Positions 16,266-53,527 of a DNA stretch of 56,961 nt are shown piece after piece. The stretch is from an uncultured Verrucomicrobiota bacterium (lineage in GTDB: Bacteria; Verrucomicrobiota; Verrucomicrobiia; Limisphaerales; UBA9464). The position numbers and the translations under genes were made by a program. Positions within the stretch are counted from its first letter, which is position 1; every line of letters starts with the position of its first letter. The notes beneath the pieces were generated by a model. The model was not told the DNA's origin and did not search any database. It worked only from the letters and a program-made list of their open reading frames with translations. Location of the stretch: the NCBI GenBank assembly GCA_903922605.1, contig CAIXUG010000043.1, positions 1-56,961 on the forward strand. Direction: 5' to 3'.

Positions 16266-16269
16266 ACGC

Positions 16270-23971: not shown

Positions 23972-24101
23972 GGGAAATTTCGAATTTCGAATTACGAGTG
24001 AAACCAGTGCTTCAGTGGCGTGTGATGTGTGACGAGTGACGGGCAACGAGTTGCGGAACCGAAAGCTGAAACCGAAAACCGAAAACTCGGCCCACGTTCC
24101 C
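23972..24101. repeat. Heptad-repeat spacer before permease 3
   Basis: Units ATTTCGA, ATTTCGA, ATTACGA, GTGAAAC are followed by CAGTG-containing and CGAGTGA-like units, then CGAAAGC, TGAAAC, CGAAAAC, CGAAAAC. The order is the same as in the other spacers. Confidence 0.75.
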
Positions 24102-26507: not shown

Positions 26508-26629
26508 GGGAATTCCGAATTTCGAATTTCGAATTGTGAGTGAACCAGTGACCAGAAATCGATGATGCCACCTCCGCCCATCTTCCTGACCTTGGACCTT
26601 GGACCCGGGACCCGGGACCTCCTCTCCCC
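26508..26629. repeat. Heptad-repeat spacer before permease 4
   Basis: GAATTTC-type units follow the stop, then GTGAACC and AGTGACC. The last block is CTTGGAC, CTTGGAC, CCGGGAC, CCGGGAC, which differs from the GAAAAC block used before permeases 1, 3 and 5. Confidence 0.75.
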
Positions 26630-29083: not shown

Positions 29084-29198
29084 GGAAAATTACGAAGCAC
29101 GAAGTGCGAATTACGAGTGACCCAGAATCAGGGACGAGTGACCAGATCCGGGACCGAAAACCGAAAACCGGAAACCGAAAACTGAGCCCAATCTCGCC
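29084..29198. repeat. Heptad-repeat spacer before permease 5
   Basis: ATTACGA, AGCACGA, AGTGCGA, ATTACGA, GTGACCC units are followed by GACGAGTGACCAG, then CGAAAAC, CGAAAAC, CGGAAAC, CGAAAAC, TGA. Confidence 0.75.
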
Positions 29199-31646
29199 AT
29201 GAACGACCTGAAATTCGCCCTCCGGCAGCTGCTGAAGAGCCCCGGCTTCACCGCCGTGGCCGTGCTTACCCTGGCGCTTGGCATCGGGGCGACCACGGCC
29301 ATTTTCAGTGTGGCCAACACGGCGCTGCTCCGGCCGCTGCCTTACGCCAAACCGGAGCAGCTTGTGCGGCTGTATACGGAGTTCCCGGGAATCCCGAATG
29401 ACGGTGGCCGGCGGTTTGCCTTCTCACATCCGGAGTATCTGGACCTCCGGCGCGAGACGAAGTCGTGGGCGGGCCTCGAACTCTGGGCCATGGGCGAGGC
29501 GACCCTGGCGGGCGAGGCCGATCCCATTCGCGCCGCGGGAGCGGGCGTGACCGGGGGGATGCTGGGGATGCTGGGGGTGACGCCCCTGTCCGGCCGTCTG
29601 ATCGGACCCGAGGACGACCAGCCCGGCGCGCCGAAAGCCGCGAACATCTCATTCGGTCTCTGGCAAAGCCTTTTCGCGGGTGACCCCAACGTGGTCGGGC
29701 GCGAACTGCGAGTGAACGGGGAGAAGCACACCGTCCTCGGCGTGATGCCCCAGGACTTCCGTTTTCCGCCGGGGGCGGCGGATGCCCCGCAGGTGTGGGT
29801 GGCGATGCAGCTTGATCCGCTCCATCCCGGCGGCCGTGCCGAGCATAACTTCTCGCTGCTCGGGCGGCTGAAGGAGGGGGTGACGCTGGGCCAGGCCCGG
29901 TCGGAACTGGAGGCGTTCGTGCAGCAGTCTGAGAAGACCACTCCGGCAGGCGAGCATGGCTTCGGCAAGACCGGCCATCCCATCGTGATCCATGGCCTGC
30001 ATGACGAGGTGGTGCGGACCATCCGGCCGGCGCTGCGCATGCTGCTGGGGGCGGTCGGGTTTGTGCTGCTCATCGCCTGCGTGAACGTGGCCAATCTGCT
30101 GCTGGCGCGCGCGGAAGCCCGGCAGAAGGAGATCGCCATCCGGGGTGCGCTCGGAGCCGGCTGGCGGTCGCTCGCCCGGCAATTTGTCATTGAGGGAGTC
30201 CTGCTTTCACTGTTGGGAGCCGTGGTGGGACTGTTTCTGGCCCAGGGCGGGCTGCAGCTCGCGCAGGCCGCCGATGAGGCCAGCCTGCCGCGCGCGGCGG
30301 AAATGGCGTTGGATGCCCGGGTGCTGCTCTTTACACTTGTGATCAGCGTGGTGACCGGGATCGGCTTTGGGCTGGCCCCGTTTTACCATGTGGCGCGGCG
30401 AAGCTTCCACGGCTCGCTGAAGTCCGTCGCAACCTCGGTGACCGGCGCGGCGGCGACGCAGCGGTTCCGACATGTGCTGGTCATGGGCGAACTGGCCCTC
30501 GCGCTGATGCTCCTCATCGGCACGGGCCTCATGCTGCGGGCCTTCTGGAAACTCCAGCAGGTGGATGCCGGCTTCGAACCGCGTGGAATCGTCACCGCCC
30601 AGGTGGCGCTGCCGCCGGCGACCTATCCGGATGGTCCGACCCAGTCGGCCTTCTGGACCCGGCTTGAAACCGAACTGACGGCGCTGCCTGGGGTGGAGAG
30701 CGCCGCGCTGGTGACCGGGCTGCCGCCCCAGAAGCAGGCAGTCTACTCGGACCTCGAGATCGAGGGCTTCGTGTCGGTGCCCGGTGGCCCGATGCTGAAT
30801 GTGGATTTCTACCAGGGAGTCTCGCCGGCCTATTTCAAGACCCTGCGCATCCGGCTCCTGGAGGGCCGGCTGTTCGACGCGCGTGACACGCCGGGCGCGA
30901 CGGATGTCGCGGTGATCAACCGGGCCACGGCGCGGATGTTCTACGGGGAACAAAGTCCGATCGGCCGCCGTCTGCGACCCGCCAGCGGCGCGAAAGAGTG
31001 GTGCACGGTCATCGGGGTGGTCGATGACGTGAAAAATCACGGCCTGGAGAATGTCGCCGGGACGGAAGTCTATTTCGCAATGGGGCAGACCTATGCCCGC
31101 GACAACCGCGCCTGCTATGTTGCGTTGCGCTCGCGTGGTGAGCCCGCGGCCGTGATCAGCGCGCTGCGCCGCGAGGTCCGGACCTTGGATCCCTCCCTGC
31201 CACTTTCCCGGGTGCGGACATTGGAGGCGGTGATGTCGGCCGCCCAGGCGCGGCCACGTTTTCTCGCGACCCTGCTGCTGATCTTCTCCGGGGTCGCCCT
31301 GGTGCTGGCGACGGTGGGCATCTACGGCGTCATCTCCTATTCCGTGGCGCAGCGCACGCGCGAGATCGGCGTGCGCATGGCCCTCGGGGCCCAGCGGGGC
31401 GATGTGCTGAGCCTGCTGCTGGGACGGGGGATGCTCGTGGCGGGCATAGGGATCGCCCTCGGCCTGGCAGGCGCCTTCGTCCTCACCCGCTCGCTTTCCT
31501 CCCTGCTGTTCGGCGTCACCCCCACCGATCCGCTGACGTTCGCCGCCGTGCCACTCCTGCTGGCGGTGGTCGCCTTCGTCGCCATCTACATCCCGGCGCG
31601 GCGCGCCACGAAGGTCGATCCGACGGTTGCCCTGCGTTACGAATGA
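29199..31646 (+). CDS. ADOP-type ABC permease 5
   Basis: 815 aa, starting [20 protein letters not shown]. The first coupling region [20 protein letters not shown] is followed by [15 protein letters not shown], where most copies have RQLLTES. The second is [20 protein letters not shown]. The first periplasmic domain contains [20 protein letters not shown]. The last TM is followed by [18 protein letters not shown], with Ile-Tyr before it instead of the CWLP seen in most copies. Confidence 0.9.
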
Positions 31647-31761
31647 CTGGGGAAAATTTGAATTAAGAAGGATGAATTATGAATGAAGCAGCCCGTTTCC
31701 TCCCGGAGTTCGGGCAGTATTCCGCAGCTCCCCCGCACCCTTTCTCCCCTGCATCCCTGCC
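31647..31761. repeat. Short heptad block before permease 6
   Basis: Only the first block is repetitive (TTTGAAT, TAAGAAG, GATGAAT, TATGAAT). The rest is non-repetitive and C-rich up to the start codon, so this is the least repetitive of the long spacers. Confidence 0.6.
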
Positions 31762-34191
31762 ATGAATGATTTCCGTTTCGCTCTCCGCCAGCTCCTGAAA
31801 AACCCCGGTTTCGCCGCCGTGGCCGTGCTCACGCTCGCGCTCGGCATCGGAGCAACGACCGCCATCTTCAGTGTCGTCTATGGCGTGCTGATCAACCCGT
31901 ATCCGTACGCCCATCCGGAGACCATCTGGGCACCCGGGCTGCAGAGCGCGGGCGGCCAGCAGACCATGCGGCCCTATCGCAAGGACGAGTTTGACGCGAT
32001 GGCCTCGTTGCCGGGCGTTGCGGACATGATGGGGACGAGTCCCGGTAGTGCACTGCTCACCGGCGAATTTGCCGCTGAAAATCTTACCACTCCTCGGCTG
32101 ACACCAAACGCCTTCCAATTTCTCGGCGTTGCGCCGGTCGTGGGCCGATTCTTCGGGCCCGGGGATTTCTCACCCTCCGGCGAACCGCAACCGGTCACCG
32201 TCATCACGTTCAAGCTGTGGCAGCGGCTCTTCGCCGGCGACCCCAAGGCGCTCGGCCGGACACTGCGGCTGGACGACCGGACCTACACGATCATCGGCGT
32301 GATGCCCGCACGGTTTGGGTGGTGGACCAGCGACGGCTGCTGGTTGCCTTTCGACCGCACTGCGGGCGATCCCCGCCGGCTCTTCCCCATCGCCCGGCTC
32401 AAGCCGGATGCCAATGCTGCGATCGTCCGCCAGCAGTTGGCTTCGCTCTACGTCGGATTGGCCCAGGCCAATCCCGACGGATTCCCGAAGGAGAAATTTG
32501 AGGCCACGCTGACCAACTATCTGGACATCACCTCGGCGAGCGGCGAGATGGAGCACACCCTGCAACTGCTGTTTGGGGCGGTCGCCTTCCTCCTGCTGAT
32601 CGCCTGCGCCAACATCGCCAACCTCCAGCTGGCCCGGGCCACCGGCCGGGCGAAGGAGATGGCCATCCGCCTGGCCATCGGCGCGGGCCGGGGCCGGCTC
32701 GTGCGGCAGCTGCTGACCGAAAGCGTGCTGCTCTCCGGCTTGGGCGGTGTTTTGGGCCTGGCGTTGGGAGTGGCCATCACGCGGCTGATGGTGGTGCTGA
32801 TGCCGTCCTTCAACGTGCCTAACGAGGCGCGCATCGAGGTGAATGGCTACGTGCTGCTTTTCTGTATCACGGTGTCGCTCGTCACCGGCATTCTTTTCGG
32901 CCTGGTGCCCGCGTTGCAGTCCACCCGGCCGAACCTCTCCGGTGCGCTCAAAAACGAACGCTCGGCCGAGGGAGTGGCCAAGGGCGGTGCCTTCCGCTCG
33001 ACCCTGGTGGTCGTCGAAATGGCGTTGTCCGTTGTTCTGCTGATCAGCGCCGGCCTCACGATCCGAAGCTTTCTGGCGCTCCAGCAGGTGGACCCTGGCT
33101 TCCAGCCCGAGAATTTAGTCACGGCGGATGTGATGCTGCCCCGGTCACACTACACGACAATCGAGCAGCATAACCGGTTCGCGGAAGAACTGCTCGAACG
33201 CGTCGAGCGCCTTCCTGGCGTGCAGGCGGTGGCGATCGGAAATGGCGGAACGCCATTCGGCGGTCCTCCTTCCGGTTACTCGATCAATGGACAACCGGGC
33301 GCCGATTCCCTGCCGATCACCCTAAACCTGGTCAGCGCGAACTATCTCAAAACGCTCGGGGTCATGCTCCGCCGGGGACGGATGCTTACTCCGGATGAGT
33401 TGCGGCGCGGCGACCGATTCACGGTCATTAACGAGGCGGCGTCGAAGCTCTGGCCGGCCGGAGTAGATCCGCTCGGCCAGCAGATCTCGTTGGACCTCTT
33501 GAAAAACCTGCCTAACTCCGTCCTGTTTCTCACGAACATTTCCCCGGTGCTCACGGTCGTCGGTATCTGCGCCGACACGCGCAACAACGGTCTTACCCGG
33601 GAGACCCAGCCGACCGCGCTCATTCCTTTCACCCTCGTGGCCCCGGGCGGAAGGACATTGGCCATCCGGTCCCACGGGGAGCCCGCCGCCATTTTCAACG
33701 CTTTGCGTCGGGAAGTGACCGCCATGGACTCTCAACTGCCGGTGGCCAATACGCGGACCATCGAGGAATCCATGAAAGACCAGACCGCCCAGCCGCGGTT
33801 CACGATGGCGCTGTTCAGCCTGTTCGCTGTGGTGGGGCTGGCGCTGGCGACGGTCGGGTTGTTCAGCGTGCTCTCCTATCTGGTCAGCCGCCGCACGCGG
33901 GAGATCGGTATCCGGATGGCCCTGGGTGCCCAGCGGCATCAGGTGCTTGGGCTGGTGCTCAAGGACGGCGGCCGCCTGGCGGGATTGGGAATCCTGATTG
34001 GAATCATCGCGAGTCTCGGGGTTGCCCGCTTCGTCGGCAGCCAAGTGGACCTTTACCACGTGAAGGCGATCGACCCTGTCTCCTTTGTCACCGTGATCGT
34101 CGTCCTGGGAACCGTCGCCCTGCTCGCGTGCTGGCTCCCGGCCCGGAGGGCTGCGTCGGTGAATCCCAACGAGGCGCTGCGGAGCGAGTGA
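31762..34191 (+). CDS. ADOP-type ABC permease 6
   Basis: 809 aa, starting [20 protein letters not shown]. The first periplasmic domain is unusually distinct (TMRPYRKDEFDAMASLPGVA), and the link before TM2 is NYLDITSASGEMEHTLQLL. Coupling regions: [20 protein letters not shown] and [20 protein letters not shown]. The second periplasmic domain carries an inserted NISPVLTVVGICADTRNNG segment. The end is LPARRAASVNPNEALRSE, with Asn-Pro-Asn instead of Asp-Pro-Met. It is probably a separate lineage from its neighbours, judging by eye. Confidence 0.9.
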   Translation: MNDFRFALRQLLKNPGFAAVAVLTLALGIGATTAIFSVVYGVLINPYPYAHPETIWAPGLQSAGGQQTMRPYRKDEFDAMASLPGVADMMGTSPGSALLTGEFAAENLTTPRLTPNAFQFLGVAPVVGRFFGPGDFSPSGEPQPVTVITFKLWQRLFAGDPKALGRTLRLDDRTYTIIGVMPARFGWWTSDGCWLPFDRTAGDPRRLFPIARLKPDANAAIVRQQLASLYVGLAQANPDGFPKEKFEATLTNYLDITSASGEMEHTLQLLFGAVAFLLLIACANIANLQLARATGRAKEMAIRLAIGAGRGRLVRQLLTESVLLSGLGGVLGLALGVAITRLMVVLMPSFNVPNEARIEVNGYVLLFCITVSLVTGILFGLVPALQSTRPNLSGALKNERSAEGVAKGGAFRSTLVVVEMALSVVLLISAGLTIRSFLALQQVDPGFQPENLVTADVMLPRSHYTTIEQHNRFAEELLERVERLPGVQAVAIGNGGTPFGGPPSGYSINGQPGADSLPITLNLVSANYLKTLGVMLRRGRMLTPDELRRGDRFTVINEAASKLWPAGVDPLGQQISLDLLKNLPNSVLFLTNISPVLTVVGICADTRNNGLTRETQPTALIPFTLVAPGGRTLAIRSHGEPAAIFNALRREVTAMDSQLPVANTRTIEESMKDQTAQPRFTMALFSLFAVVGLALATVGLFSVLSYLVSRRTREIGIRMALGAQRHQVLGLVLKDGGRLAGLGILIGIIASLGVARFVGSQVDLYHVKAIDPVSFVTVIVVLGTVALLACWLPARRAASVNPNEALRSE

Positions 34192-34281
34192 AGTGAATTG
34201 CGAGTTTCGAGTTTCGAATTGCGAGTGACGAGAAACGGCAAACCCCAGAACCAAGACGCCCAATCCCAGACCCCATTTCCC
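34192..34281. repeat. Heptad-repeat spacer before permease 7
   Basis: GAGTTTC and GAATTGC-type units, with GTGACGAG after them, are followed by the CCCAGAC family (AACCCCAGAACC, AATCCCAGACCCC). There is no GAAAAC or TTGGAC block. Confidence 0.7.
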
Positions 34282-36681
34282 ATGAACGACCTACGCTTCG
34301 CGCTCCGCCAACTGTTTAAGAATCCCGGCTTCACCGCCGTGGCCGTGCTCACGCTGGCGCTCGGCATCGGGACCTGCACCGCGATGTTCAGCATCGTCAA
34401 CGCCGTCCTGCTGAAGCCGCTGCCCGTGTTGCAGCCGGACCGCCTCGTCTGGATCGAGAACATCTTTGGCGACTCCGGGCTCTCGGGACGCACCTCGCGG
34501 GCGGACACGTTCCTCGGCTGGCGCGAGCAGAGCAAAAGCTTCGATTCCCTCGCCGCCTACTTCGCGTTTTCCGACTACGTGCCGCTCACGATGACGGGGA
34601 AAGACGGTTCGGAGCGCCTGCGGAGCGTCGGGGTTTCCGACAATTTCCTGCCGACCTTGGGCATCACGCCGCTCCACGGACGTAACTTCAGCGCCGAGGA
34701 ATGCGCCTTCAACGGCCCCAGTGCGGTTATCCTCACGCATGCCTACTGGCAGCGCCGGTTCGGTGGCGATCCGGCGGTGGTGGGGCGGAAGATCACGCTG
34801 AACACGCAGCCGGGGACCATTGTCGGCGTGCTGCCCGAGTCGTTCGATTTCGCCTCAATCTTCACTCCTGGCAGCGAGGTGGATGTCATCAACCCGTTTC
34901 CGCTCACGCCGGAGACGGCCCGTTACGGCAACACGGTGTTCGGCATCGGACGGCTGAAGCAGGGCGCCACGCTGGCGCAGGCCCAGGCCGAATTGACGGT
35001 CATCAGCGACCGGCTACAGACAACACTCAAGGCGGGAACCCTCGGGGCCAAAGTGAGCACGCTGGACACAACCCTTCGCGGGAAATTCCGCAGCGCGTTC
35101 CTGCTCCTCGCCGCGGCGGTGGTCTGTGTGCTTGCGATCGCGTGCGTGAACCTCTCGAACCTCCTGCTGGCCCGGCTCAACTCGCGCCGCCAGGAATTTG
35201 CGGTGCGCCTTGCCCTTGGGGCCAGCCGGCTGCATCTGGTCCGCCAAACCCTGACCGAGAGCCTCCTGCTCGCCTTCGCCGGGTCGCTGGTGGGCGTGCC
35301 GCTGGCGGTCTGGGCAACGAGCCTGCTCGCGCACCTTTCGAGCTTTGGCGTGCCTCTGTTGCAGCATGCCGCAGTCGATCGCATCGCCCTCAGCGTCACG
35401 ATCGGACTGACCACGCTGGCCGGCATCGCCTGCGGTTTGCTGCCGGCGCTCCAGCTGTTCCGGGCGCAGGGTGCCCACGCCGGACAGGATGCCACGCATC
35501 AGCGCAGCGCCGGCCGGTCGGCCGCCGCCGCCCGGGGCACACTCGTGGTCGCTGAGGTCGCGTTGGCGTGCATGCTGTTGGTGGGAGCGGGCCTGCTTAT
35601 CCGCAGCTTCAACGCCGTACTCCAGGTCGATCTCGGCTTCCAGCCGCAGCACGCCATGGCGTGGCGCATCGATTCCACGAAACAGTTCAAGAGCGGTGAG
35701 GATGTGGACCTCTATCTGGGTGGCATGGCCCGGAAGATCGCCGCGCTTCCGGGCGTCGAGGCGGTTGGCTTCAGTGACACCCTGCCGCTGGGGCGGAACC
35801 GCTCCTGGGGTGCGGGTGCGGTCGGCGTGCAATACCCCGATGGACAATTTCCCAACGCCTACCCGCGCCTGGTGGACCCCAATTATCTGAAGGCGATGAA
35901 GATCCCGCTGGTTGCCGGCCGTTACTTTGACGAGCAGTTCAATCCCAAAGCCGAGAAGGCCGTCGTCATCAATGAAAACATGGCCCGGCTGCTCTGGCCA
36001 GGACAGGATGCGCTCGGGCACAAAGTCACGGTGAACGGGGGTTCCACGGTCATCGGCGTTGTGGCGAATGTCCGCCACAGTTCCCTTGAGGAGGCCGCCG
36101 GAAATGAGATGTATCTGGACTGCCGGCAGAGCAGCGATTGGAGCACGCTGGAGATGGTGGTCCGAAGTGGTCGGACGCCCGGCTCGCTCGTGCCCGATGT
36201 ACGGACTGCGCTGGCGGAATATGATCCCACCCTGCCGAATGGCGCCTTCCACACGCTCGACAGCCTGATCGACGATGCGGTGGGGCCGCGCCGGTTCATT
36301 ACCCGGTTGCTGGGCTTTTTCTCCGCCCTGGCGCTGACTCTCGCGGCCATCGGACTATATGGAGTGATTGCCTTTTCCGTCAGCCAGCGGACGCAGGAGA
36401 TCGGCATCCGCATGGCGGTCGGCGCACAGCGGGGCGACATTCTCCGGCTGATCCTGCAGGGCGGCCTCAAGCTGGTCGTTATCGGCATCGCTGCCGGTCT
36501 GGTCGGCTCAGTGGTGCTCACCGGGCTGCTGCGCAGCCTGCTCTTTGGCATCACGTCGCACGATCCACTCGTCTTTGCCGGCAACGCCGCACTGCTCTTT
36601 GCCGTCGCGGGCATCGCCTGCCTGATCCCGGCGTTCCGGGCGACCCGCTCGGACCCGATGGTGGTGCTGCGGGCGGAGTGA
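34282..36681 (+). CDS. ADOP-type ABC permease 7
   Basis: 799 aa from the ATG at 34282 ([20 protein letters not shown]); the open frame upstream is heptad repeat. After TM2 it reads AIACVNLSNLLLARLNSRRQ. The linker before TM5 contains QGAHAGQDATHQRSAGRSAA, longer and more His/Gln-rich than in the other copies. The second coupling region is SQRTQEIGIRMAVGAQRGDI. The C-terminus LIPAFRATRSDPMVVLRAE departs from the usual [13 protein letters not shown]. Full length and apparently intact. Confidence 0.9.
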   Translation: MNDLRFALRQLFKNPGFTAVAVLTLALGIGTCTAMFSIVNAVLLKPLPVLQPDRLVWIENIFGDSGLSGRTSRADTFLGWREQSKSFDSLAAYFAFSDYVPLTMTGKDGSERLRSVGVSDNFLPTLGITPLHGRNFSAEECAFNGPSAVILTHAYWQRRFGGDPAVVGRKITLNTQPGTIVGVLPESFDFASIFTPGSEVDVINPFPLTPETARYGNTVFGIGRLKQGATLAQAQAELTVISDRLQTTLKAGTLGAKVSTLDTTLRGKFRSAFLLLAAAVVCVLAIACVNLSNLLLARLNSRRQEFAVRLALGASRLHLVRQTLTESLLLAFAGSLVGVPLAVWATSLLAHLSSFGVPLLQHAAVDRIALSVTIGLTTLAGIACGLLPALQLFRAQGAHAGQDATHQRSAGRSAAAARGTLVVAEVALACMLLVGAGLLIRSFNAVLQVDLGFQPQHAMAWRIDSTKQFKSGEDVDLYLGGMARKIAALPGVEAVGFSDTLPLGRNRSWGAGAVGVQYPDGQFPNAYPRLVDPNYLKAMKIPLVAGRYFDEQFNPKAEKAVVINENMARLLWPGQDALGHKVTVNGGSTVIGVVANVRHSSLEEAAGNEMYLDCRQSSDWSTLEMVVRSGRTPGSLVPDVRTALAEYDPTLPNGAFHTLDSLIDDAVGPRRFITRLLGFFSALALTLAAIGLYGVIAFSVSQRTQEIGIRMAVGAQRGDILRLILQGGLKLVVIGIAAGLVGSVVLTGLLRSLLFGITSHDPLVFAGNAALLFAVAGIACLIPAFRATRSDPMVVLRAE

Positions 36682-36828
36682 CGGAAATTTCGAATGGCGA
36701 GTTGCGAATTTCGAGTGGAAGCAGTGACCAGTGATCAGTGACGAGAGTCGCTGAATTACTGAAGCCTTCACGGGGCGCTCCTGACGCTCATTCCCCCGAC
36801 TCGGGATCTTGGACCCGGGACCCGGAAC
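36682..36828. repeat. Heptad-repeat part of the spacer before permease 8
   Basis: The units ATTTCGA, ATGGCGA, GTTGCGA, ATTTCGA come first, then CAGTGAC, CAGTGAT, CAGTGAC, GAG, then CTTGGAC, CCGGGAC, CCGGAAC. This 305-nt gene-free stretch continues with an activator palindrome and a sigma-54 promoter, listed separately. Confidence 0.8.
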
Positions 36829-36841
36829 TTGGGTTCGACGC

Positions 36842-36857
36842 GTCCCAATTCTGGGAC
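36842..36857. promoter_or_regulatory. Palindromic activator site 2 (candidate UAS)
   Basis: GTCCCAATTCTGGGAC differs from site 1 (15824) only in the centre; the outer GTCCCAAT and GGGAC are the same. It lies about 105 nt upstream of a sigma-54 -24 element, in the only spacer of the array that has one. Confidence 0.8.
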
Positions 36858-36953
36858 AGTCCTTTCCCATTATCGGCGAAGCGCGCGAAGAGCCCGCGCC
36901 GGGCATTCGAGTGAACGGGCGTCTTTTGCTCTATTTTGGCCGGATTCCCGATG

Positions 36954-36968
36954 TGGCATATCGCTTGC
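36954..36968 (+). promoter_or_regulatory. Sigma-54 (-24/-12) promoter of permease 8
   Basis: TGGCATATCGCTTGC matches TGGCA-N6-TTGC, with GG and GC exactly 10 nt apart. The predicted transcription start (near 36980) is only about 7 nt before the permease 8 ATG. The GGAGGGG at 36969-36975 would then lie upstream of the transcript. Confidence 0.82.
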
Positions 36969-36986
36969 GGAGGGGCTGCGTTATAT

Positions 36987-39380
36987 ATGCAGGATTTTCG
37001 TTTCGCCCTTCGCCAGCTGCTGAAGAATCCCGGGTTCACGGCCGTGGCCGTGCTCACCCTCGCGCTAGGTATTGGGGTGAACACGTCGATGTTCAGCGCG
37101 TTGCAAGCGATCCTGCTGCGGGCGCTGCCCTATCCGGCGCCGGACCAGTTGGTGCGGATCCATCGCACTTCGTCGCAGTCCCAAAGCTGGCCGCATTCGG
37201 CCGCGAATTTCCTGGATGAGCGTGGGCAGAACCAGGTGTTTAGCGGCATGGCGGCCTTGAGCTGGGCGTCCTTCAATCTGGCCGAGTCCGGCCAGCCGGC
37301 GGAACGCCTGCACGGGATGATCGCGTCGGCCGACCTGTTTTCCTTGTTCGGCGTGCAGCCGGCGTTGGGCCGCGTGTTCACTGGGGAGGAGGACCAGCCG
37401 GGCCGGAACAACGTCGTGGTCCTGAATTATGGGTTCTGGCAGCACCGCTTCGCTGGCGACACGAACATAATCGGACGCACCTTGCGGCTGGATGGCGAAC
37501 TGGTGACGGTATTGGGGGTGATGCCCGCGCAGTTTCACGACCCGCTGATCTGGGGGCCGGTGGATGTCTGGCGGCCGCTCGCGTTTACGACCGAGCAGCG
37601 CCAGAACCGCGGCAACAACTGGCTGCAATCCGTCGCCCGCCTCCGGCCCGGGGTCACGCTGGCGCAGGCGCAAGCGGAGATGACCACCATCGCCGCCCGT
37701 CTGGCGAAAGAGTATCCGGACAACAACACGGATATCGGTCTGCGCCTACAGCCCCTGGCCGAATCCGGTACGGACGCGACCGGCCACCGGGTCATCTGGA
37801 TGACGATGGGCCTGACCGGCTTCGTGCTGCTGATCGCCTGTGCGAACCTGGCCAATCTCCAGTTCGCGCGGACGGCGCGGCGCAGCCGGGAACTGGCAAT
37901 TCGCGGCGCGCTCGGGGCGCCGCGTGGCCGGCTGCTGCGGGGCCTGCTGACTGAGAGCCTGCTGATCGCCCTCCTCGGCGGACTGCTCGCCCTGGTGGTC
38001 GCGACCTGGGTCAACGAGTGGATCGGTCGCCAGATCATCCTCGGCGACGAGACGGGCCTGAGGCTGCCCCTGAACCTGAAGGCCCTTGGCTTCGCGGCTC
38101 TGGCCTCGATGGTGACCGGCCTGGCCTTCGGCCTCGCTCCGGCGTGGTTCGCCACCCGCCCCGACGTCAACGACGCCCTCAAACAGGGCGGGCGCGGGGT
38201 CGCGGGCGACCGCACCCAGAACCGGGTGCGTCACGGGCTCATCGTGGCCGAGATGGCGCTCGCGCTCGTGTTGCTGGCCGGCGCGGCCCTGTTCGTTCGC
38301 GGCCTCGACCGGTTCACCTTTCGCGATCCGGGCTGGGCGGTGGACGGGCTGACCACCGGTTCCCTCAGCCTGCCCGAAAGCAAATATCGCGACGATGGCC
38401 AGCGCCGGGCATTTGTCGCGCAGCTGCAGGAGAAACTGGGGGGATTACCCGGAGCGACGGGCGCTGCCATCGCCTGGTCCCTGCCAATCTATGATGGCAA
38501 TTTCAGCCGCAACTTTGCGGTGGAAGGGCGCCCGCCCCCGCCTCGTGGCCATGAACCGCTCCGCTTCGTGAACGGGGTCACGCCCGGGTATTTCGCGGTG
38601 CTCGGGATTCCACTCCGGGATGGCCGTGACTTTAACCCCGCCGACACGGCCAACCGCTCCGCGGTGGCGGTCATCAACGAGACGATGGCCCGGACTTTTT
38701 GGCCCGGGGAATCGCCGATCGGCAAGCGGATCGGTGGGGTGGGGGACTGGGAGGAGGTCGTCGGCGTGGTGGGCGACGTGCGGTTTGCGGCGAATTTCAA
38801 CCGGCCCGACACGTATTTCCAGACCTACCGGCCCTTTACCCAGTCGCCGCGCGCCTACCTCTCCGTTGCCGTCCGGGGGGCGGTCCCGGCCGATACGCTC
38901 CGTCGCGCGGTCACCGAACTGGATCCCGACCAGCCGGTGAATGATCCCGGGACCGCGCGGGCGGCGGTGACAAGGAACTTGGGAAACTTCGCTTTGACTG
39001 GCCGGCTGCTCGGCGGCTTCGCGCTGCTCGGCCTGCTGCTGGCCGGACTGGGTATCTACGGGGTGATCGCCGGCCAGGTGGTCCAGCGGACCAGTGAGAT
39101 CGGGGTGCGAATGGTGCTGGGTGCCCAGTTGCGCGATGTGCTGTGGCTCGTGCTGGGCAAGGGGCTGCAGATTACGATTCTTGGAGCCGGTATCGGACTG
39201 GTCGGCGCGCTGGGCGTGGCCCGGCTGCTCCGGTCCATCACGCCCGAGCTCCCCACGAACGATCCGGCGGTCGTCCTGGGCATGGCGGCGCTGCTTTTGG
39301 TGGTCGCTCTGATCGCCTGTTGGCTGCCCGCCGCCCGCGCGGCGCGCGTGGACCCGATGGTGGCGCTGAGAAACGAATGA
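36987..39380 (+). CDS. ADOP-type ABC permease 8 (own sigma-54 promoter)
   Basis: 797 aa from the ATG at 36987 ([17 protein letters not shown]). The in-frame Met at 36936 lies upstream of the promoter and was rejected. The TM1 region has GIGVNTSMFSALQ, shared only with permease 10, and the second coupling region QRTSEIGVRMVLGAQLRDVL again matches permease 10. First coupling region: LQFARTARRSRELAIRGALG. It is the only copy with its own recognisable promoter and activator site, so it may be made without the upstream genes or more strongly than they are. Confidence 0.9.
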   Translation: MQDFRFALRQLLKNPGFTAVAVLTLALGIGVNTSMFSALQAILLRALPYPAPDQLVRIHRTSSQSQSWPHSAANFLDERGQNQVFSGMAALSWASFNLAESGQPAERLHGMIASADLFSLFGVQPALGRVFTGEEDQPGRNNVVVLNYGFWQHRFAGDTNIIGRTLRLDGELVTVLGVMPAQFHDPLIWGPVDVWRPLAFTTEQRQNRGNNWLQSVARLRPGVTLAQAQAEMTTIAARLAKEYPDNNTDIGLRLQPLAESGTDATGHRVIWMTMGLTGFVLLIACANLANLQFARTARRSRELAIRGALGAPRGRLLRGLLTESLLIALLGGLLALVVATWVNEWIGRQIILGDETGLRLPLNLKALGFAALASMVTGLAFGLAPAWFATRPDVNDALKQGGRGVAGDRTQNRVRHGLIVAEMALALVLLAGAALFVRGLDRFTFRDPGWAVDGLTTGSLSLPESKYRDDGQRRAFVAQLQEKLGGLPGATGAAIAWSLPIYDGNFSRNFAVEGRPPPPRGHEPLRFVNGVTPGYFAVLGIPLRDGRDFNPADTANRSAVAVINETMARTFWPGESPIGKRIGGVGDWEEVVGVVGDVRFAANFNRPDTYFQTYRPFTQSPRAYLSVAVRGAVPADTLRRAVTELDPDQPVNDPGTARAAVTRNLGNFALTGRLLGGFALLGLLLAGLGIYGVIAGQVVQRTSEIGVRMVLGAQLRDVLWLVLGKGLQITILGAGIGLVGALGVARLLRSITPELPTNDPAVVLGMAALLLVVALIACWLPAARAARVDPMVALRNE

Positions 39381-39503: not shown

Positions 39504-42020
39504 ATGAACGACCTCCGCTTCGCCTTCCGCCAGCTGCTGAAGAGCCCCGGTTTCACCGTCGTGGCCGTGCTTACCCTGGCGCTCGGCATCGGGGCCAACG
39601 CCACGATCTTTTCGATCATCAACTCCATCCTGATCAAGCCCCTCCGGGCGAGCCGACCGGAGCAGCTCGCCGGCGTCTATCAGCATGACCGGGACAATCC
39701 GGATTCGTTCCATCTCTTCTCCTATCCCGACTTTGCCGACCTGCGTTCCAGCCCGGACTCGGCCTTCACCGAACTATTCGCCTTCGGCCGCGCCTCGGTC
39801 GCCATCCACGACGAGTTGACGAAGGAAATTCCGGCCAATCTGGTCAGCGCGAACTATTTCGCCGCACTGGGAGTGGCCCCGGCACTCGGACGCGGGTTCG
39901 TGCCGGAGGAGGAAACCTCGGGAGCACCGGTGGCGGTGCTCAGTCATGCCTTCTGGCTGAAGCTGGGGGGCAATCCCGCCATTGTCGGGACCACCCTCAA
40001 ACTGACACGGGGTGACGTGACCGTGATCGGGGTGATGCCGCGCGGATTCACGGGTGCCCAGTTGCTGGCCCCGGCCCTGTACCTGCCGCTCGGGGCTCCG
40101 GAATCATTGATGTCGGGTGCTGGCGAGGCGGCCTACCGGCCGCTGGCCAACCGCGGCGACAGGCGGTTCATGCTCATGGGCCGGCTGAAGCCGGGGTTGA
40201 CGCTTGCGAATGCAAGCGGGGCGTTGGCGGTGATGAGCGAGCGGTTTGCGGTCGCCGATCCCGCCGAGCCGAAAGCCAGGACCCTGATTTGTACCGCGCC
40301 CGCCCGGTTCAATTTCAGCGACGGGCCGGGCCAGAACAACAAGGGGCTCGCCCAAATCTCTGGTTTGGCCTTCGGACTCGCCGCGCTCGTGCTGCTCATC
40401 GCCTGCCTGAACCTGGCCAACATGATGCTGGCGCGGGGCACCGCCCGTCGCAAAGAGGTGGCGGTGCGGCTCGCCTTGGGAGCAGGGCGCCGTCACATCC
40501 TGGCGCAGCTGCTCACCGAAGGACTGCTCCTGGCGTTGTTGGGCGGCGTCGCCGGGCTGCTGGTTTCCATGGGGGCGACCCAAATCCTGTCGGCCCTGAT
40601 CTATTCCGGTGCGGGCATGCCGGCGGATTTCCCCATCTTCGACTTCGCACCCGATGGGCGTGCCCTGGTTGTGCTTCTTGCCTTCAGCGGCCTTGCCACC
40701 CTGGTTTTTGCGCTGGGGCCGGCCTGGACGCTCACCCGGGTTGAATTCAATGCAGCCCTCAAACAGCACGCCGGCGAAGATGTCCGGGCGGGGCGCTTCG
40801 GAATCCGGGATGTCCTCGCGGTGGGCCAGATGGCCTTCACGCTGGCCCTGCTGGTGGCGGCCGCTCTCTTTTGCCGCAGCGCCATCAATGCCTATGACGC
40901 CAATCCCGGCTTCGAACTGGGATCCAATTTCTATGTCGCACTCGACCCCAAGCTGACCGGTGAGACGGATTCACGTGCGTGGGTGCTGAACCGGGCCGCA
41001 ACCGAGCGGTTGGCCTCGCTGCCGGGTGTCGAATCGGTCAGTTCGGCCCTCTACATTCCCTTCGGTGGCAGCTGGGGCGGTTGCGAGGTCCAGCTGGGGG
41101 GCGCGCCGCCACCGGCCGATGGCGCGGCGACGATCACGGGCGGGCGGAAACTGGCCGCCGCCTACAATGTGGTGGGGGCCGATTATTTCCGCACCATGGG
41201 AATTTCCCTGCTGCGGGGGCGGGAATTCGAGCGGCGGGAAGAGCAGACCAACGGGGCCCAGCCGGTGGCGATCATCAGCCAGGCACTGGCGGAGCAGTTC
41301 TGGCCCGGGGCGGATCCGTTGGGGCGAACGATCCAGTTCCCCAGCTACGATGCCAAAACCTCCCCGAAGCTGCTGACGGTGGTGGGGGTCGTGCCCACGG
41401 TTCAACGGCGGCTCTTCAAGGAGGAACCACACGCGGCTGTCTACATTCCGCTCGGGCAGGAATTTCATGCGGATTTCAAACTGCAGGTGCGCGTCGCTCC
41501 CGGAGTGGACCCGGCGCAGCTGATGACCACGGCCCGTGCCGAGCTGCACCGGCTGGACGCGGGCATTCCGCTGACGGAAATCAAAACCCTCGTGGCGATG
41601 CACCATGATGGACCGGACGTGCGGGTGATGCGTCTCGGAGCGGTGCTCTTCGGCGCCTTCGGCGGCCTGGCGCTGCTCCTGAGCTCGGTCGGCATTTACG
41701 GATTGAAATCATACGCCGTCGCCCGGCGCACCCGCGAGATCGGCATCCGCATGGCCCTCGGTGCCAACCCACGCAACGTGGTGGGCCTGATCCTGCGCGA
41801 AAGCATCCGGCTGGCGGGGCTGGGACTCGGCCTCGGGGTGCTGCTGGCGCTCGCCGTGGGGAAACTGGCCGCCAACTTCCTGTACCACCTGCCGGCCACC
41901 GATCCGGTCACCTTTGGCATCGTGCCGCCATTGCTGCTCGCCGTGGCGCTGCTCGCCTGCTGGCTGCCCGCCCGCCGGGCGGCCCGGGTAAACCCCATGG
42001 TGGCGCTACGGAGCGAGTGA
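39504..42020 (+). CDS. ADOP-type ABC permease 9 (longest copy)
   Basis: 838 aa, the longest in the array, with extra length in the periplasmic domains. The first periplasmic domain (FSYPDFADLRSSPDSAFTEL) is of the permease 1/12 kind. After TM2 it reads LIACLNLANMMLARGTARRK, and the second coupling region is [20 protein letters not shown]. The second periplasmic domain has a Gly/Pro-rich loop (LGGAPPPADGAATITGGRKL). It lies between the paralogous permeases 8 and 10. Confidence 0.9.
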   Translation: MNDLRFAFRQLLKSPGFTVVAVLTLALGIGANATIFSIINSILIKPLRASRPEQLAGVYQHDRDNPDSFHLFSYPDFADLRSSPDSAFTELFAFGRASVAIHDELTKEIPANLVSANYFAALGVAPALGRGFVPEEETSGAPVAVLSHAFWLKLGGNPAIVGTTLKLTRGDVTVIGVMPRGFTGAQLLAPALYLPLGAPESLMSGAGEAAYRPLANRGDRRFMLMGRLKPGLTLANASGALAVMSERFAVADPAEPKARTLICTAPARFNFSDGPGQNNKGLAQISGLAFGLAALVLLIACLNLANMMLARGTARRKEVAVRLALGAGRRHILAQLLTEGLLLALLGGVAGLLVSMGATQILSALIYSGAGMPADFPIFDFAPDGRALVVLLAFSGLATLVFALGPAWTLTRVEFNAALKQHAGEDVRAGRFGIRDVLAVGQMAFTLALLVAAALFCRSAINAYDANPGFELGSNFYVALDPKLTGETDSRAWVLNRAATERLASLPGVESVSSALYIPFGGSWGGCEVQLGGAPPPADGAATITGGRKLAAAYNVVGADYFRTMGISLLRGREFERREEQTNGAQPVAIISQALAEQFWPGADPLGRTIQFPSYDAKTSPKLLTVVGVVPTVQRRLFKEEPHAAVYIPLGQEFHADFKLQVRVAPGVDPAQLMTTARAELHRLDAGIPLTEIKTLVAMHHDGPDVRVMRLGAVLFGAFGGLALLLSSVGIYGLKSYAVARRTREIGIRMALGANPRNVVGLILRESIRLAGLGLGLGVLLALAVGKLAANFLYHLPATDPVTFGIVPPLLLAVALLACWLPARRAARVNPMVALRSE

Positions 42021-42060
42021 GAAGAATTACGATTTTCGAATTACGAATTACGAGTGAACA
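42021..42060. repeat. Heptad-repeat block after permease 9
   Basis: ATTACGA, TTTTCGA, ATTACGA, ATTACGA, GTGAAC. It is identical over about 40 nt to the block after permease 8, but here it is not followed by the later repeat blocks. Confidence 0.85.
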
Positions 42061-42328
42061 GAAGCCGAGCACCAGGAAAGAATATGAGGCTGCACAAGCC
42101 GCTTACATGAAGGAGAAGAACAAATACAAGTTCGAGGAGGAAACGCTTTCCATGATCCGCGTCCAAAACTTCGATCAAAGGCTGAGTAGGCTGAACATCG
42201 ATATGCTCGCCCTGTTCGGCGAGAAGGATACCAGCCTAAACTGGCGCAAAGCATTGAACCTCTATCAATCAACCATCGGACGTCGTCCAGCGGGCGGGAT
42301 CGTCGCGTCTTCTCTCACTGGTCAACCT
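42061..42328 (+). other. Open, lower-GC stretch, possible gene remnant
   Basis: No complete gene is evident. The frame is open throughout and reads plausibly as protein (EYEAAQAAYMKEKNKYKFEE; SRLNIDMLALFGEKDTSLNW). Its base composition is visibly less GC-rich than its neighbours. It continues in frame into the next gene's signal peptide, which is probably chance. A short gene starting at ATG 42107 or a fragment of an older gene are both possible. Confidence 0.3.
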
Positions 42329-43009
42329 ATGAAAACCATCCTGCTCCTGTTTTCCGTCCTAGCCACCGCGTCCGCGGTCTGCGCCGCTGACATCCCACTC
42401 GATCCCGCCCGCTGGCATCTCGAGATGAATCCCCGCACCAACGCCAAAATCGAGGCGGTGACCGACAAAAATGGCGTCACCCACCAGGCCATCCGCTTCC
42501 GGGTCGACTACCAGAAACTCGAAGAGACCAAGGACTATCCGCCGGGCACCGTCTTCGTGCCCGGGCTCCAGTTCCAAAACGGCACCATCGAGGCCGATCT
42601 CGTCGGGCCCATCGAACCCGATGACCGAACCTTTGTGGGCATCGCCTTTCGCATCGATCCGAAGAATACGAAACAGCACGAGTTGATCTATTTCCGGCCT
42701 TTCAATTCCGGTACTCCCCGCCATCTGCACTCGGTCCAATACGTAGCCACGGACACGATCTACGACTGGCCCTATCTCCGCGAGAAATTCCCCGGCGTCT
42801 ACGAGGGCGGGGCGAACATCGCAAACAATGTCTGGTTCCACGCCCGGCTTGAGATCGACGGCACCACCGTCCAGGTCTTCGTCAATGACGGCAAGGAGCC
42901 CGTCCTTGTCGTGAAGGACCTCAAGCTCGGCGACCGCAGCGGCCTCGTCGGCTTCTGGGGCTATCCCGGCGCCTTTGCCAATCTGAAAGTCATCGCGCGA
43001 AGCAAATAG
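42329..43009 (+). CDS. Secreted ConA-like (laminin G/DUF1080-type) protein
   Basis: 226 aa from the ATG at 42329. A clear signal peptide (MKTILLLFSVLATASAVCAA) is followed by a beta-rich domain with features of the LamG/GH16-like fold: FQNGTIEADLVGPIEPDDRT, FVGIAFRIDPKN, FHARLEIDGTTVQVFVNDGK and LVGFWGYPGAFANLKV. Such domains often bind or cleave glycans, but no catalytic residues can be assigned. It sits between permeases 9 and 10 and ends 11 nt before permease 10. A 330-aa version starting in the repeat at 42017 was rejected because it would bury the signal peptide. Confidence 0.75.
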   Translation: MKTILLLFSVLATASAVCAADIPLDPARWHLEMNPRTNAKIEAVTDKNGVTHQAIRFRVDYQKLEETKDYPPGTVFVPGLQFQNGTIEADLVGPIEPDDRTFVGIAFRIDPKNTKQHELIYFRPFNSGTPRHLHSVQYVATDTIYDWPYLREKFPGVYEGGANIANNVWFHARLEIDGTTVQVFVNDGKEPVLVVKDLKLGDRSGLVGFWGYPGAFANLKVIARSK

Positions 43010-43020
43010 CCCACATTATT

Positions 43021-45402
43021 ATGCTTTTAGATCTTCGCTTCGCCTTCCGTCAGCTGCTGAAGAGCCCCGGTTTCACGGTGGTTGCCGTGCTGACGCTGGC
43101 CCTTGGCATCGGCGTGAACACGTCCATGTTCACCGCGCTCCAAAACTCGCTCTCCCGCACGCTGCCCTATCCCGAGCCCGAACGGCTGGTACAGGTATTT
43201 CAGACCTCGCCCGGTTCGCCGCGCGAGTCGCATCACTCCGCCCCGAACTTCCTCGATTACCAGCGGAATGGAGACTTTGAGGCGATCGCGGCGCTGAACG
43301 ACCGTCCGTTCAACCTGTCGGAAACAGGCCAGCCGGCCGAGCGGGTACGGGGACTGCAAGTGTCCGCCGACCTGTTCCGGGTGCTGGGAATCCAGCCGGC
43401 GCTGGGCCGGGTGTTCACCGCCGAGGAGGACCGGCCGGGGCGCAATGACGTGGTCGTGCTCGACTACGGTTTCTGGCAGCGGCGGTTCGCCGGCGATCCC
43501 AACATCCTTGGCCGCGTGCTGCGGCTCGACGGGGAATCCGTGACGGTGATCGGGGTGATGCCGGAGCGCTTTCACGACGTGATGCTGATGGGGCCGGCCT
43601 ACCTCTGGCGGCCAATTGCCTTCACCGATTCCCAGCGGGTGGATCGCGGGAACAACTACCTGAAATGCATTGCCCGGCTCAAACCGGGGGTGTCCCTGAA
43701 ACAGGGGCGGTCGGCGGCGGATGTCCTGGCGACGAGGCAGCGGCAGGAACATCCGGACAATTTGGCCGAAGGGCTGCGGCTCGAGCCCCTGGCCAATGCC
43801 AGCCTGCCGCCGGAAGGCCGCACGATTGTGTGGTCGATCATGGCGCTCGCCGGATTCGTGCTGCTGATCGCCTGCGCCAACCTGGCGAACCTGCAATTTG
43901 CACGGACCTCGGCGCGCAGCCGTGAGTTTGCGATCCGGGGCGCTTTGGGAGCCGTGCGGAGCCGGCTGCTCCGGCAGTTGCTGGCGGAAAGCCTGTTGCT
44001 GGCGCTGGCCGGCGGCGGCTTGGGCGTGCTGTTCGCCCTATGGTGCAACGAACTGTTGCGCCGCCAGTTTGTCATGGAGGGCGAGACGATCCTGGCGCTG
44101 TCGCTGAACCTGAAGGTTTTGGCGTTTGCGCTGGTCGCTTCCAACCTTTGTGGGCTCGCCTTCGGCCTGGTGCCGGCGTGGCTGGCCTCCCGCACGGACG
44201 TCAATGACGCGCTCAAACAGGGCTCACGCGGCTCGACCGGGGGCCGCTCCCAGCACCGGATGCAGCAGGCGCTCATCGTCGCCGAGGTGGCGCTCGCCCT
44301 GATGCTGCTCGCGGGAGCCGGACTCGTCGTGAACGGATTGCGCGGTTTTGCCTCACTGGACCCGGGTTGGCGGGTGGATGGCCTGAGCATCGGCTACCTG
44401 ACGCTGCCGGAGGCAAAGTATGGCAATGGAAACCAGCAGCGCGCTTTCGCCAGCCAGCTGGAAGAACGGCTGAAGGCGATTCCCGGGGTTGAAAGTGCCG
44501 CCGTCTGTTGGAACCTGCCGATCAGCCAGTTCAACGTGGGGGCGAGTTTCAATCTGGATGGCCGCCCCGAACCGCCGAGGGGCGCGGTCCAGAACTGTTC
44601 CGTCGACGGGGTTTCGACCGGCTATTTTCACACGTTGGGCATGCGGCTGCTGGCGGGCCGCGATTTCACGGATGCGGACAACACCAACCGCCCGCCGGTG
44701 GTCATCATCAATGCGGCGATGGCCCGGGCCTATTGGGCGGATGCCTCGCCGATCGGGCAGCGCGTGAACGGCGCCGAGATCGTGGGCGTGGTGAATGATG
44801 TGCGCTTCCCGGCCAATCCGGCCATTCCGGGAACGCCGTACCAGACATACCGCCCCTATGCCCAACAGCCGGGCGGCCGGCTGAACCTGGTTGTTCGCGG
44901 GGTCATACCGGCCGAGACCATCCGCCGCGTCGTCGCCGAAGTGGATCCGGACCAGCCGGTGGGCCGGCCGGGCTCGGTGCGCGCTGACATTGGGAGCACC
45001 CTGGACAACTGGGATGTCGGCGGGAAGGTGCTGAGCATCTTCGCGCTGCTCGGTCTGTCGCTGGCCGCGCTGGGCATCTACGGCGTCATCTCCGGTTTCG
45101 TGGTCCGGCGCACCGGTGAAATCGGCGTGCGGATGGCGCTCGGCGCGCAGCTGCGCGATGTGCTCTGGCTGGTGGTCGGCAAGGGGCTGCGGCTGTCGCT
45201 CATCGGGACCGGCGTCGGGCTGGCCGGTGCGTTCGGTCTTTCACGCCTGCTGACCTCCGTTCTGCCGGGCCTGCCATCCGCAACCCTGTGGGTGGTGGCC
45301 ACCGTCTCCGGGCTGCTGCTGCTGGTCACCTTGCTCGCCTGCTGGCTGCCGGCCCGTCGGGCGGCACGGGTCGATCCGATGGTCGCCCTGCGGAGCGAAT
45401 GA
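43021..45402 (+). CDS. ADOP-type ABC permease 10
   Basis: 793 aa, starting [20 protein letters not shown], the only copy with this extended start. It is closest by eye to permease 8: GIGVNTSMFTALQ, RVFTAEEDRPGRNDVVVLDY, LQFARTSARSREFAIRGALG and [20 protein letters not shown] all recur there with few changes. It is not preceded by a heptad spacer but by the secreted ConA-like gene. The last segment is [18 protein letters not shown]. Intact. Confidence 0.9.
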   Translation: MLLDLRFAFRQLLKSPGFTVVAVLTLALGIGVNTSMFTALQNSLSRTLPYPEPERLVQVFQTSPGSPRESHHSAPNFLDYQRNGDFEAIAALNDRPFNLSETGQPAERVRGLQVSADLFRVLGIQPALGRVFTAEEDRPGRNDVVVLDYGFWQRRFAGDPNILGRVLRLDGESVTVIGVMPERFHDVMLMGPAYLWRPIAFTDSQRVDRGNNYLKCIARLKPGVSLKQGRSAADVLATRQRQEHPDNLAEGLRLEPLANASLPPEGRTIVWSIMALAGFVLLIACANLANLQFARTSARSREFAIRGALGAVRSRLLRQLLAESLLLALAGGGLGVLFALWCNELLRRQFVMEGETILALSLNLKVLAFALVASNLCGLAFGLVPAWLASRTDVNDALKQGSRGSTGGRSQHRMQQALIVAEVALALMLLAGAGLVVNGLRGFASLDPGWRVDGLSIGYLTLPEAKYGNGNQQRAFASQLEERLKAIPGVESAAVCWNLPISQFNVGASFNLDGRPEPPRGAVQNCSVDGVSTGYFHTLGMRLLAGRDFTDADNTNRPPVVIINAAMARAYWADASPIGQRVNGAEIVGVVNDVRFPANPAIPGTPYQTYRPYAQQPGGRLNLVVRGVIPAETIRRVVAEVDPDQPVGRPGSVRADIGSTLDNWDVGGKVLSIFALLGLSLAALGIYGVISGFVVRRTGEIGVRMALGAQLRDVLWLVVGKGLRLSLIGTGVGLAGAFGLSRLLTSVLPGLPSATLWVVATVSGLLLLVTLLACWLPARRAARVDPMVALRSE

Positions 45403-45458
45403 ACAATCACGCCAACTTTCTCCATCCAGTCCAACCGTTCCCCATCGATTCCGCTTTC

Positions 45459-45788
45459 ATGAAATCATTCGACCAACTTTTCCGCGCCGTGCGGGTCACC
45501 ATACTGCTGCTCGGATTGAGCGCGTGCCGCCCATCCACCCAGATTTCCACGCAGGCGGCTGGGCACGCCATCACGGCGAATCTGGAGGGATCGCATTCCC
45601 TCGACACCCAGCCGGATCGGGTGGTGATCACCGGCGAGTTCGGGAAAATCACGGTCGAGCCGGCGCGGGTGCGCCTGGGTGACGGACCTTGGACCAAAAT
45701 CCACGAACAGGTCCCGATCGAGGTCGGCATCGCCAAGCACAAGCGCTGGATTACCGCCGGCGGCGTCCGCATCAAGGAGACTGACTGA
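45459..45788 (+). CDS. Small putative lipoprotein
   Basis: 109 aa, starting MKSFDQLFRAVRVTILLLGL. A lipobox-like LSAC follows (Cys at about residue 23), so the mature protein would be lipid-anchored. The rest is short beta-rich sequence (GEFGKITVEPARVRLGDGPW; IEVGIAKHKRWITAGGVRIK) without a family I recognise. The Met at 45459 was chosen because it begins the signal peptide. It lies 56 nt after permease 10 and 146 nt before permease 11. A role in the exporter is possible only by position. Confidence 0.6.
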   Translation: MKSFDQLFRAVRVTILLLGLSACRPSTQISTQAAGHAITANLEGSHSLDTQPDRVVITGEFGKITVEPARVRLGDGPWTKIHEQVPIEVGIAKHKRWITAGGVRIKETD

Positions 45789-45825
45789 CGCCGCACCTTC
45801 GCCTTACCCGCGTGCCCCGCTCGCC

Positions 45826-45934
45826 GCAGAACAAGAATGCAGTAATCAGTGACCAGTGATCAGTAATCAGTGACGAGGCACGCCAAACCCAAAACCCAAG
45901 ATCCCAGACGCCGGACCCTAAACCCCGTTTTGCC
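45826..45934. repeat. Heptad-repeat spacer before permease 11
   Basis: Five perfect units in a row (CAGTAAT, CAGTGAC, CAGTGAT, CAGTAAT, CAGTGAC) are followed by GAGG and the CCCAGAC family (AACCCAAAACCCAAG, ATCCCAGACGCCGGACCC). The ATTACGA block is missing here, where the preceding gene is the lipoprotein rather than a permease. Confidence 0.8.
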
Positions 45935-48374
<2,440 letters not shown>

Positions 48375-48382
<8 letters not shown>

Positions 48383-50819: not shown

Positions 50820-50975
50820 GGGGAATTACGAGGTATGAAGTGCGGATTACGAATGACCAGTAATCAGTAACCAGTGAACCAGTGATCAGTAACGTCCCTG
50901 ACACCCATCTGCCTGACCTGAGGCGGGGGATACGGGACCAGGGATCTGAAAACCGAAAACCGAAAACTGAGCCTC
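50820..50975. repeat. Heptad-repeat spacer before permease 13
   Basis: ATTACGA, GGTATGA, AGTGCGG, ATTACGA come first, then a CAGTAAT/CAGTAAC/CAGTGAT series, then CTGAAAAC, CGAAAAC, CGAAAAC, TGA. All three blocks appear in the usual order. Confidence 0.8.
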
Positions 50976-53393: not shown

Positions 53394-53527
53394 TAGGAAT
53401 TACGATTTTCGAATGACGAATGACGAGTGAACCGGTGTTCAGTGAACAGTGATGAGTGACGAGAGCTGTTGAAGCTCTGACGCCAAACCTCAGACCTGAT
53501 TTCGAAGCGAGTAAACTGCCCACGACC
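53394..53527. repeat. Heptad-repeat spacer between permease 13 and GNAT gene
   Basis: ATTACGA, TTTTCGA, ATGACGA, ATGACGA, GTGAACC come first, then CAGTGAA/CAGTGAT units with GAGTGACGAG, then GACGCCAAACCTCAGACC. The spacer type follows the permease, even though the next gene is not one. Confidence 0.75.

Follow-up and report, generated by a model that had tools for sequence, protein, structure and literature searches.

In this uncultured Verrucomicrobiota bacterium, ADOP exporters very probably form a sigma-54 regulon under the control of an NtrC-type two-component system, and the segment 36842-36989, in the middle of a long array of permease genes, would be the second promoter of that array. 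The mid-array promoter sequence is real, and on comparative evidence it is likely to have a functional role. The elements themselves, their conservation, their co-occurrence with the two-component system and, in many genomes, the exporter genes downstream of them were directly observed. The window, i.e. the whole stretch of 56,961 nucleotides analysed, corresponds to one entire contig (C43) of the 90 contigs of a 96%-complete assembly of 5,316,331 bases.

The features of the array are listed in Table 1. All 14 array permeases exceed the cut-off of TIGR03434 (ADOP) in a search of the genome, and permeases 1, 8 and 9 lie above the curated cut-off in an NCBIfam scan of these three; in the same type of scan, the RND_mfp score of the adaptor is under the family cut-off. 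No match was found in Pfam or NCBIfam for the 74-aa ORF. In the alignment of regulator relatives, homology begins at about 13129. The rpoN gene is present in the genome (PF04552, E=2.5e-58). Five further full-length ADOP genes are found elsewhere in the genome (three on contig C11, one each on C26 and C52); they lack the two-site element described below, which counts against the proposed reading. Gaps between permease genes (19004-19113, 23972-24035, 26508-26629, 36682-36840 and others) are rich in repeated sequence, for example AATTTCGAATTACGAGTGA, CAGTGACCAGTGATCAGTGA and GGACCCGGGACCCGG. The 532-nt gap ahead of permease 11 (45403-45934) holds an unlisted small ORF, with a lipoprotein-signal-like start.

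Table 1. Location of genes and predicted regulatory elements in the window. G137 is a genome of the same genus.
Feature	Position	Strand	Basis or remarks
Response regulator, NtrC type	12961-14475	+	receiver PF00072, sigma-54 AAA+ PF00158, Fis-type HTH PF02954 (Pfam)
Sensor histidine kinase	14472-15815	+	HATPase_c (Pfam); weak HisKA and PAS; hydropathy
Promoter 1 site A, palindrome GTCCCAATATTGGGAC	15824-15839	+	unchanged in G137
Promoter 1 site B, TTCCCGGCTTTGGGTA	15846-15861 (centre 15853.5)	+	two-site pattern match; unchanged in G137
Promoter 1 -24/-12 element, TGGCATCTGGGGTGC	15961-15975	+	unchanged in G137
Small ORF, 74 aa, first ORF behind promoter 1	16041-16265	+	
Periplasmic adaptor (membrane fusion protein)	16270-17622	+	HlyD_3 (scanned as 16111-17622)
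Two ABC ATPase genes	17643-18335, 18332-19003	+	ABC_tran (Pfam)
Permeases 1-7, ADOP family	19114-36681	+	
Promoter 2 site A, palindrome GTCCCAATTCTGGGAC, predicted activator site	36842-36857	+	unchanged in G137
Promoter 2 site B, degenerate, TTCCCATTATCGGCGA	36864-36879 (centre 36871.5)	+	two-site pattern match; unchanged in G137
Promoter 2 -24/-12 element, TGGCATATCGCTTGC	36954-36968	+	
Promoter 2, predicted transcription start	36980	+	usual sigma-54 geometry; leader of about 7 nt before ATG 36987
Permease 8, ADOP family, first gene behind promoter 2	36987-39380	+	TIGR03434, E=3.9e-269
Permeases 9-14 and two other genes, possible transcription unit 2	39504-56778	+	
Gene without Pfam family, among permeases 9-14	42017-43009	+	
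GNAT gene, among permeases 9-14	53456-54301	+	Pfam

The initial annotation had placed an activator palindrome and a sigma-54 promoter ahead of permease 8, as a second copy of a pair found upstream in the array; both are present there, and no further copies occur in the array. Exact matches to GTCCCAN4TGGGAC are found only at 15824 and 36842, in the window as in the whole genome. Within TGGCATATCGCTTGC, the -24 GG and the -12 GC are ten bases apart, in an element of the TGGCAY-N5-TTGC type, matching 10 of 13 consensus positions. From the regulator to the last permease, 13 intergenic gaps exceed 20 nt, and only 2 of them, those of promoters 1 and 2, reach a -24/-12 score of at least 10/13; 20 further matches at this score, on the + strand of the window, all fall outside these 13 gaps. 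No sigma-70 promoter was found at 36400-37100. The recurrence stands for the palindrome and for the -24/-12 element as such, while the copies differ in sequence, the promoter of the first being TGGCATCTGGGGTGC. The supposed near-equal spacing (about 105 nt) does not hold: the -24 GG lies 105.5 nt from the centre of site A in the copy at 36842, and 130.5 nt from it in the copy at 15824. Absent from the initial annotation are the very short leader predicted ahead of the ATG at 36987 and a weaker second site (site B), located in both copies exactly 22 bp, or two DNA turns, downstream of the palindrome, centre to centre.

The count of the single palindrome is, taken alone, weak evidence: 0.62 exact occurrences are expected in the genome by chance, and finding two or more has a probability of 0.13. 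A chance origin, for which these figures speak, has next to no probability once the context is considered, as both palindromes fall in array gaps, each is followed by a site B 22 bp away and by a promoter, and the same layout is seen again in genomes of different families; in our judgement, the comparative data refute it. For the two-site pattern (TCCCRN4YGGGA-N8-TCCCRN4YG) 0.045 occurrences per genome are expected from composition, and two are found, both in the array. An excess over random frequency, which the initial annotation had made decisive, is thus slight for the bare palindrome and clear for the two-site element. A regulon of many sites across the source genome was considered and rejected, the two-site pattern being present only twice; single palindromes with up to 2 mismatches are not enriched (155 places, vs 358 for the reversed pattern). 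Judging from an assembly that is 96% complete, the regulon seems limited to the array in the source organism.

Comparison was extended to 195 genomes of the order. A first scan, for the palindrome followed after 90-120 nt by TGGCAN7TGC, gave 25 matches in 16 of the 195 genomes, and none with the reversed pattern; the second site accompanies 23 of the 25, and an ADOP or adaptor gene lies downstream in 21. The two-site pattern was fixed from these sites; in a second scan of the 195 genomes it gave 103 strand matches, at 97 places spread over 34 genomes, vs 3 for the reversed pattern. Orthologs of the kinase are found in 27 genomes, 26 of which also contain an ortholog of the regulator (at least 61% identity; 26 of 195 genomes). 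The two-site element is present in all 27 kinase-bearing genomes and in 7 of the 168 others (Fisher, 6e-27), a count which is partly circular, as the pattern was derived from sites in 11 genomes featuring the two-component system. Among genomes that contributed no site to its design, the element is found in 16 of 16 bearing the system and in 4 of 163 others; this subset, like the set from outside the order described below, is free of that circularity. The 12 residues of the recognition helix are invariant in 20 of 20 aligned regulators.

These data, along with the exporter genes downstream, uphold the proposed link between permease 8 onward and the adjacent regulator. It is improbable that another transcription factor binds the palindromes, the adjacent two-component system being a co-inherited neighbour. 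The source genome does contain several other NtrC-type regulators (8 matches scored), and weaker paralogs (at most 46% identity) occur in all 195 genomes; for this very reason, paralogs cannot explain the distribution of the pattern, which follows that of the kinase. In addition, 8 of the 45 instances from outside the order lie ahead of the regulator gene itself. The seven genomes in which the element is found and a kinase ortholog is not (G048, G052, G090, G126, G139, G153, G178) favour another factor, and count against control by the neighbouring system; five of them belong to families holding the system, and the matches in G126 and G153 look like chance ones. G139, an 82%-complete genome, features many two-site matches, at 10 places, before ADOP genes, and neither a kinase nor a close regulator ortholog was found in it; its two-component system may be unassembled or replaced.

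In regulator-bearing genomes, a -24/-12 score of at least 10 is found within 36-260 nt at 65 of the 73 places, and the first homolog downstream is of exporter type at 68, counting ADOP, adaptor and ATPase genes and the array's small ORF; both are found at 62. The 8 places with no good promoter and the 5 with no exporter gene are to be counted against the proposed regulon. In the other genomes of the order, the promoter is present at 15 of 24 places, the exporter gene at 15 and both at 13. In a control window, 700-924 nt downstream, the promoter is found in 0 of 76 strand instances for regulator-bearing genomes and in 1 of 23 for the others. Mid-array or distant recurrences, comparable to promoter 2, are found in G078, 11.4 kb after the first copy, and in G083, 32 kb after it on the same contig.

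The unchanged pattern also matched 19 of 288 other genomes, outside the order, 17 of them in the same class; the reversed pattern gave one match. Of 45 instances retrieved, 40 are accompanied by a -24/-12 promoter, vs 1 of 45 in the control. The first homolog downstream is the adaptor in 16 instances, the regulator in 8 and an ADOP permease in 5 (one of them 1.7 kb away). For the remaining 16, where no homolog of the window proteins comes first, Pfam indicates three outer membrane efflux (OEP) proteins, one TonB C-terminus and one M13 peptidase, and five more resemble, by eye, the OEP or TonB kinds. Locus by locus, the element lies before genes for TolC-type outer-membrane proteins in L333, L335, L340, L343, L350, L354 and L356, before TonB-like genes in L338 and L342, and before the M13 peptidase gene in L325. 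In eight loci of the class (L339, L341, L347, L349, L351, L355, L357, L358), element and promoter are located 0.4-0.6 kb before the regulator homology, which suggests autoregulation of the regulator in class members outside the order. The regulator gene of the window has no such upstream site.

Conservation at short range was evaluated in G137, where the regulator and kinase are 99% and 98% identical to those of the source. The -24/-12 element of promoter 1 is identical, the sequence between its elements having drifted, and in promoter 2 a single T to C change adjoins the -12, which counts against the proposed reading. The G137 array is much shorter, and the permease behind promoter 2 is closer to permease 14 (47% identity) than to permease 8 (41%): the predicted promoter was kept while the gene behind it is another paralog. 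It is quite improbable that promoter 2 is a non-functional remnant from a duplication of the region around promoter 1: sites A and B are laid out alike in both copies, as a duplication would have it, but outside the motifs the alignment of the two regions is poor, and G137 retains both sites and nearly all of the -24/-12 in front of a different paralog. In G137 (contig C16, 127785-129256; L048), the start of permease 1 is fused to the end of permease 7, with a broken frame at the junction and about 16 kb of array absent relative to the window; this suggests either that permease copies recombined or that the assembly joined them.

Spacings between site and promoter, for 75 sites with both promoter and target, are mostly 102-108 and 116-119 nt, the others being near 73, 82, 94, 128 and 139 nt. 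The clusters, whose centres were picked by eye, are about 11.2 bp apart, and 3 of 5000 random sets fitted equally well. Steps of about 11 bp suit DNA looping by an oligomeric activator; the 130.5 nt of promoter 1 fit them less well, and this, like the difference in spacing between the two copies, counts against the proposed reading. Transcription from sigma-54 promoters usually starts about 12 nt past the -12 GC. The predicted leader of permease 8 is, accordingly, very short; GGAGG at 36969-36973 would lie upstream of the predicted start, hence outside the transcript, and this weighs against the proposed reading. Start codons 17-20 nt after the -12, like that of permease 8, are found in 8 of 45 ADOP cases, several other genomes being among them, and at such a distance a nearly leaderless message is predicted.

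The initial annotation had divided the array into at least two co-regulated units. This division is not supported, as no terminator-like signal was found at 36682-36841 and transcription from promoter 1 may read through; three weak terminator-like stems, at 36917-36992, lie inside or past promoter 2. Promoter 2 may, for this reason, merely add to transcription from promoter 1: an operon of about 40 kb would continue from permease 7 into permease 8, the same regulator topping up the distal genes through an internal booster. We give this arrangement slightly less than an even chance. It agrees with the layout of the listed genes, regulator through permease 14, all of which share a strand and are mostly separated by short gaps, but not with the 305-nt gap ahead of permease 8, since the array has just one other long gap between permeases. 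Moreover, in G134, G152 and G100 the element is found before single ADOP genes, on contigs other than that of the adaptor locus, indicating that it can act as a stand-alone promoter.

In the proposed mechanism, the kinase would phosphorylate the NtrC-type regulator, which would bind sites A and B as a higher oligomer, loop over about 105 bp and remodel the sigma-54 polymerase at TGGCATATCGCTTGC, so that permease 8 and the following genes would be transcribed from about 7 nt before the ATG. The same regulator would act at promoter 1, on the adaptor, the two ATPases and permeases 1-7. Judging from the paired site that relatives have before their exporter genes, the entire exporter set is probably activated by a single sensor-regulator pair; the outcome would be a single regulon, with an adaptor/ATPase core, presumably shared, and many duplicated permeases.

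The mode of control is of a known kind. NtrC-type sigma-54 promoters feature a -24/-12 element and palindromic sites about 100 bp upstream, bound by a regulator with AAA+ and Fis-type HTH domains; tandem sites are about two turns apart, and spacings vary in steps of about one helical turn. The array matches them in the -24/-12, upstream palindromes, regulator domains and tandem sites, and may match them in the spacing steps; it differs in having a motif of its own (GTCCCAN4TGGGAC plus WTCCCRN4CGRNCA), a predicted regulon of its own, made of ADOP exporters, and often a predicted near-leaderless start. MacAB-TolC is a tripartite ABC exporter with one MacB. The array likewise contains genes for an adaptor, MacB-like permease domains and MacB/LolD-like ATPases, and an OEP-family outer-membrane protein falls in the same predicted regulon, only outside the order; in contrast to MacAB-TolC, the ATPase genes are separate, the permeases are 14 duplicates and control by sigma-54 is predicted. 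Compared with the ADOP family in general, whose cut-off its members exceed, the array combines permeases with ATPase and adaptor genes and with a common regulatory element.

The kinase of the window has two hydrophobic segments, joined by a loop of at most about 10 residues. Of 12 kinases evaluated by hydropathy, against the two membrane helices and loop under 25 aa of a Bce-type kinase, 9 have two separate segments, 2 have one and 1 is unclear, some N-termini being cut at the start of the alignment. In this the kinase resembles sensors of membrane events or of transporters more than sensors of a periplasmic ligand; a cytoplasmic signal is possible, from the weak PAS match. Bce-type modules (PMC10314905, PMC3023708) place a kinase almost devoid of periplasmic part beside FtsX-type permeases, an arrangement that the array may share. 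The array differs from them in its regulator, which is NtrC-type and not OmpR-type, in the weak cytoplasmic PAS and in the Gram-negative-type exporter with an adaptor.

No description of the element or of its regulon turned up in the literature searched, mostly by title, and a term search in the main text of PMC3162934 found no mention. Nor was a paper found on ADOP control or on the ATPase partner, in a literature judged largely by title and including few subscription journals or preprints. Some soil bacteria have large numbers of ADOP permeases; the source genome has 14 in the array and 5 elsewhere. A common, easily scanned element, which ties permeases from different contigs to a single adaptor/ATPase locus, makes both their control and their ATPase partner testable, and provides a marker for the regulon in other genomes. 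More tentatively, "orphan" ADOP permeases might not be orphans at all: throughout a bacterial class, a single two-component system, by way of its own two-site sigma-54 element, could have one adaptor/ATPase/TolC-type core expressed jointly with many interchangeable permeases, including some encoded at a distance from the core locus, forming a combinatorial exporter, whose permease state the kinase may read and whose promoter is kept while the permease is exchanged, as in G137. We regard this wider picture as possible, if doubtful.

Finally, the motif was sought at distant relatives of the regulator. Of the 80 loci found, 26 were examined (L115-L140); at the thresholds used, the combination of palindrome and promoter was absent from them, and the idea was rejected, the exceptions being L115, whose regulator is 68% identical, and one unrelated match in L139. 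The closest named relative of the regulator (68%) is from a metagenome-assembled Opitutia bacterium, and a plasmid search with the regulator returned only relatives below 60% identity. In several of the L115-L140 loci, the regulator lies beside adaptor, ATPase and permease genes. Relatives of the regulator are found beside such genes also in Bacteroidetes and Gammaproteobacteria, at loci where the two-site element was not seen at the thresholds used; the pairing of regulator and exporter is therefore old.
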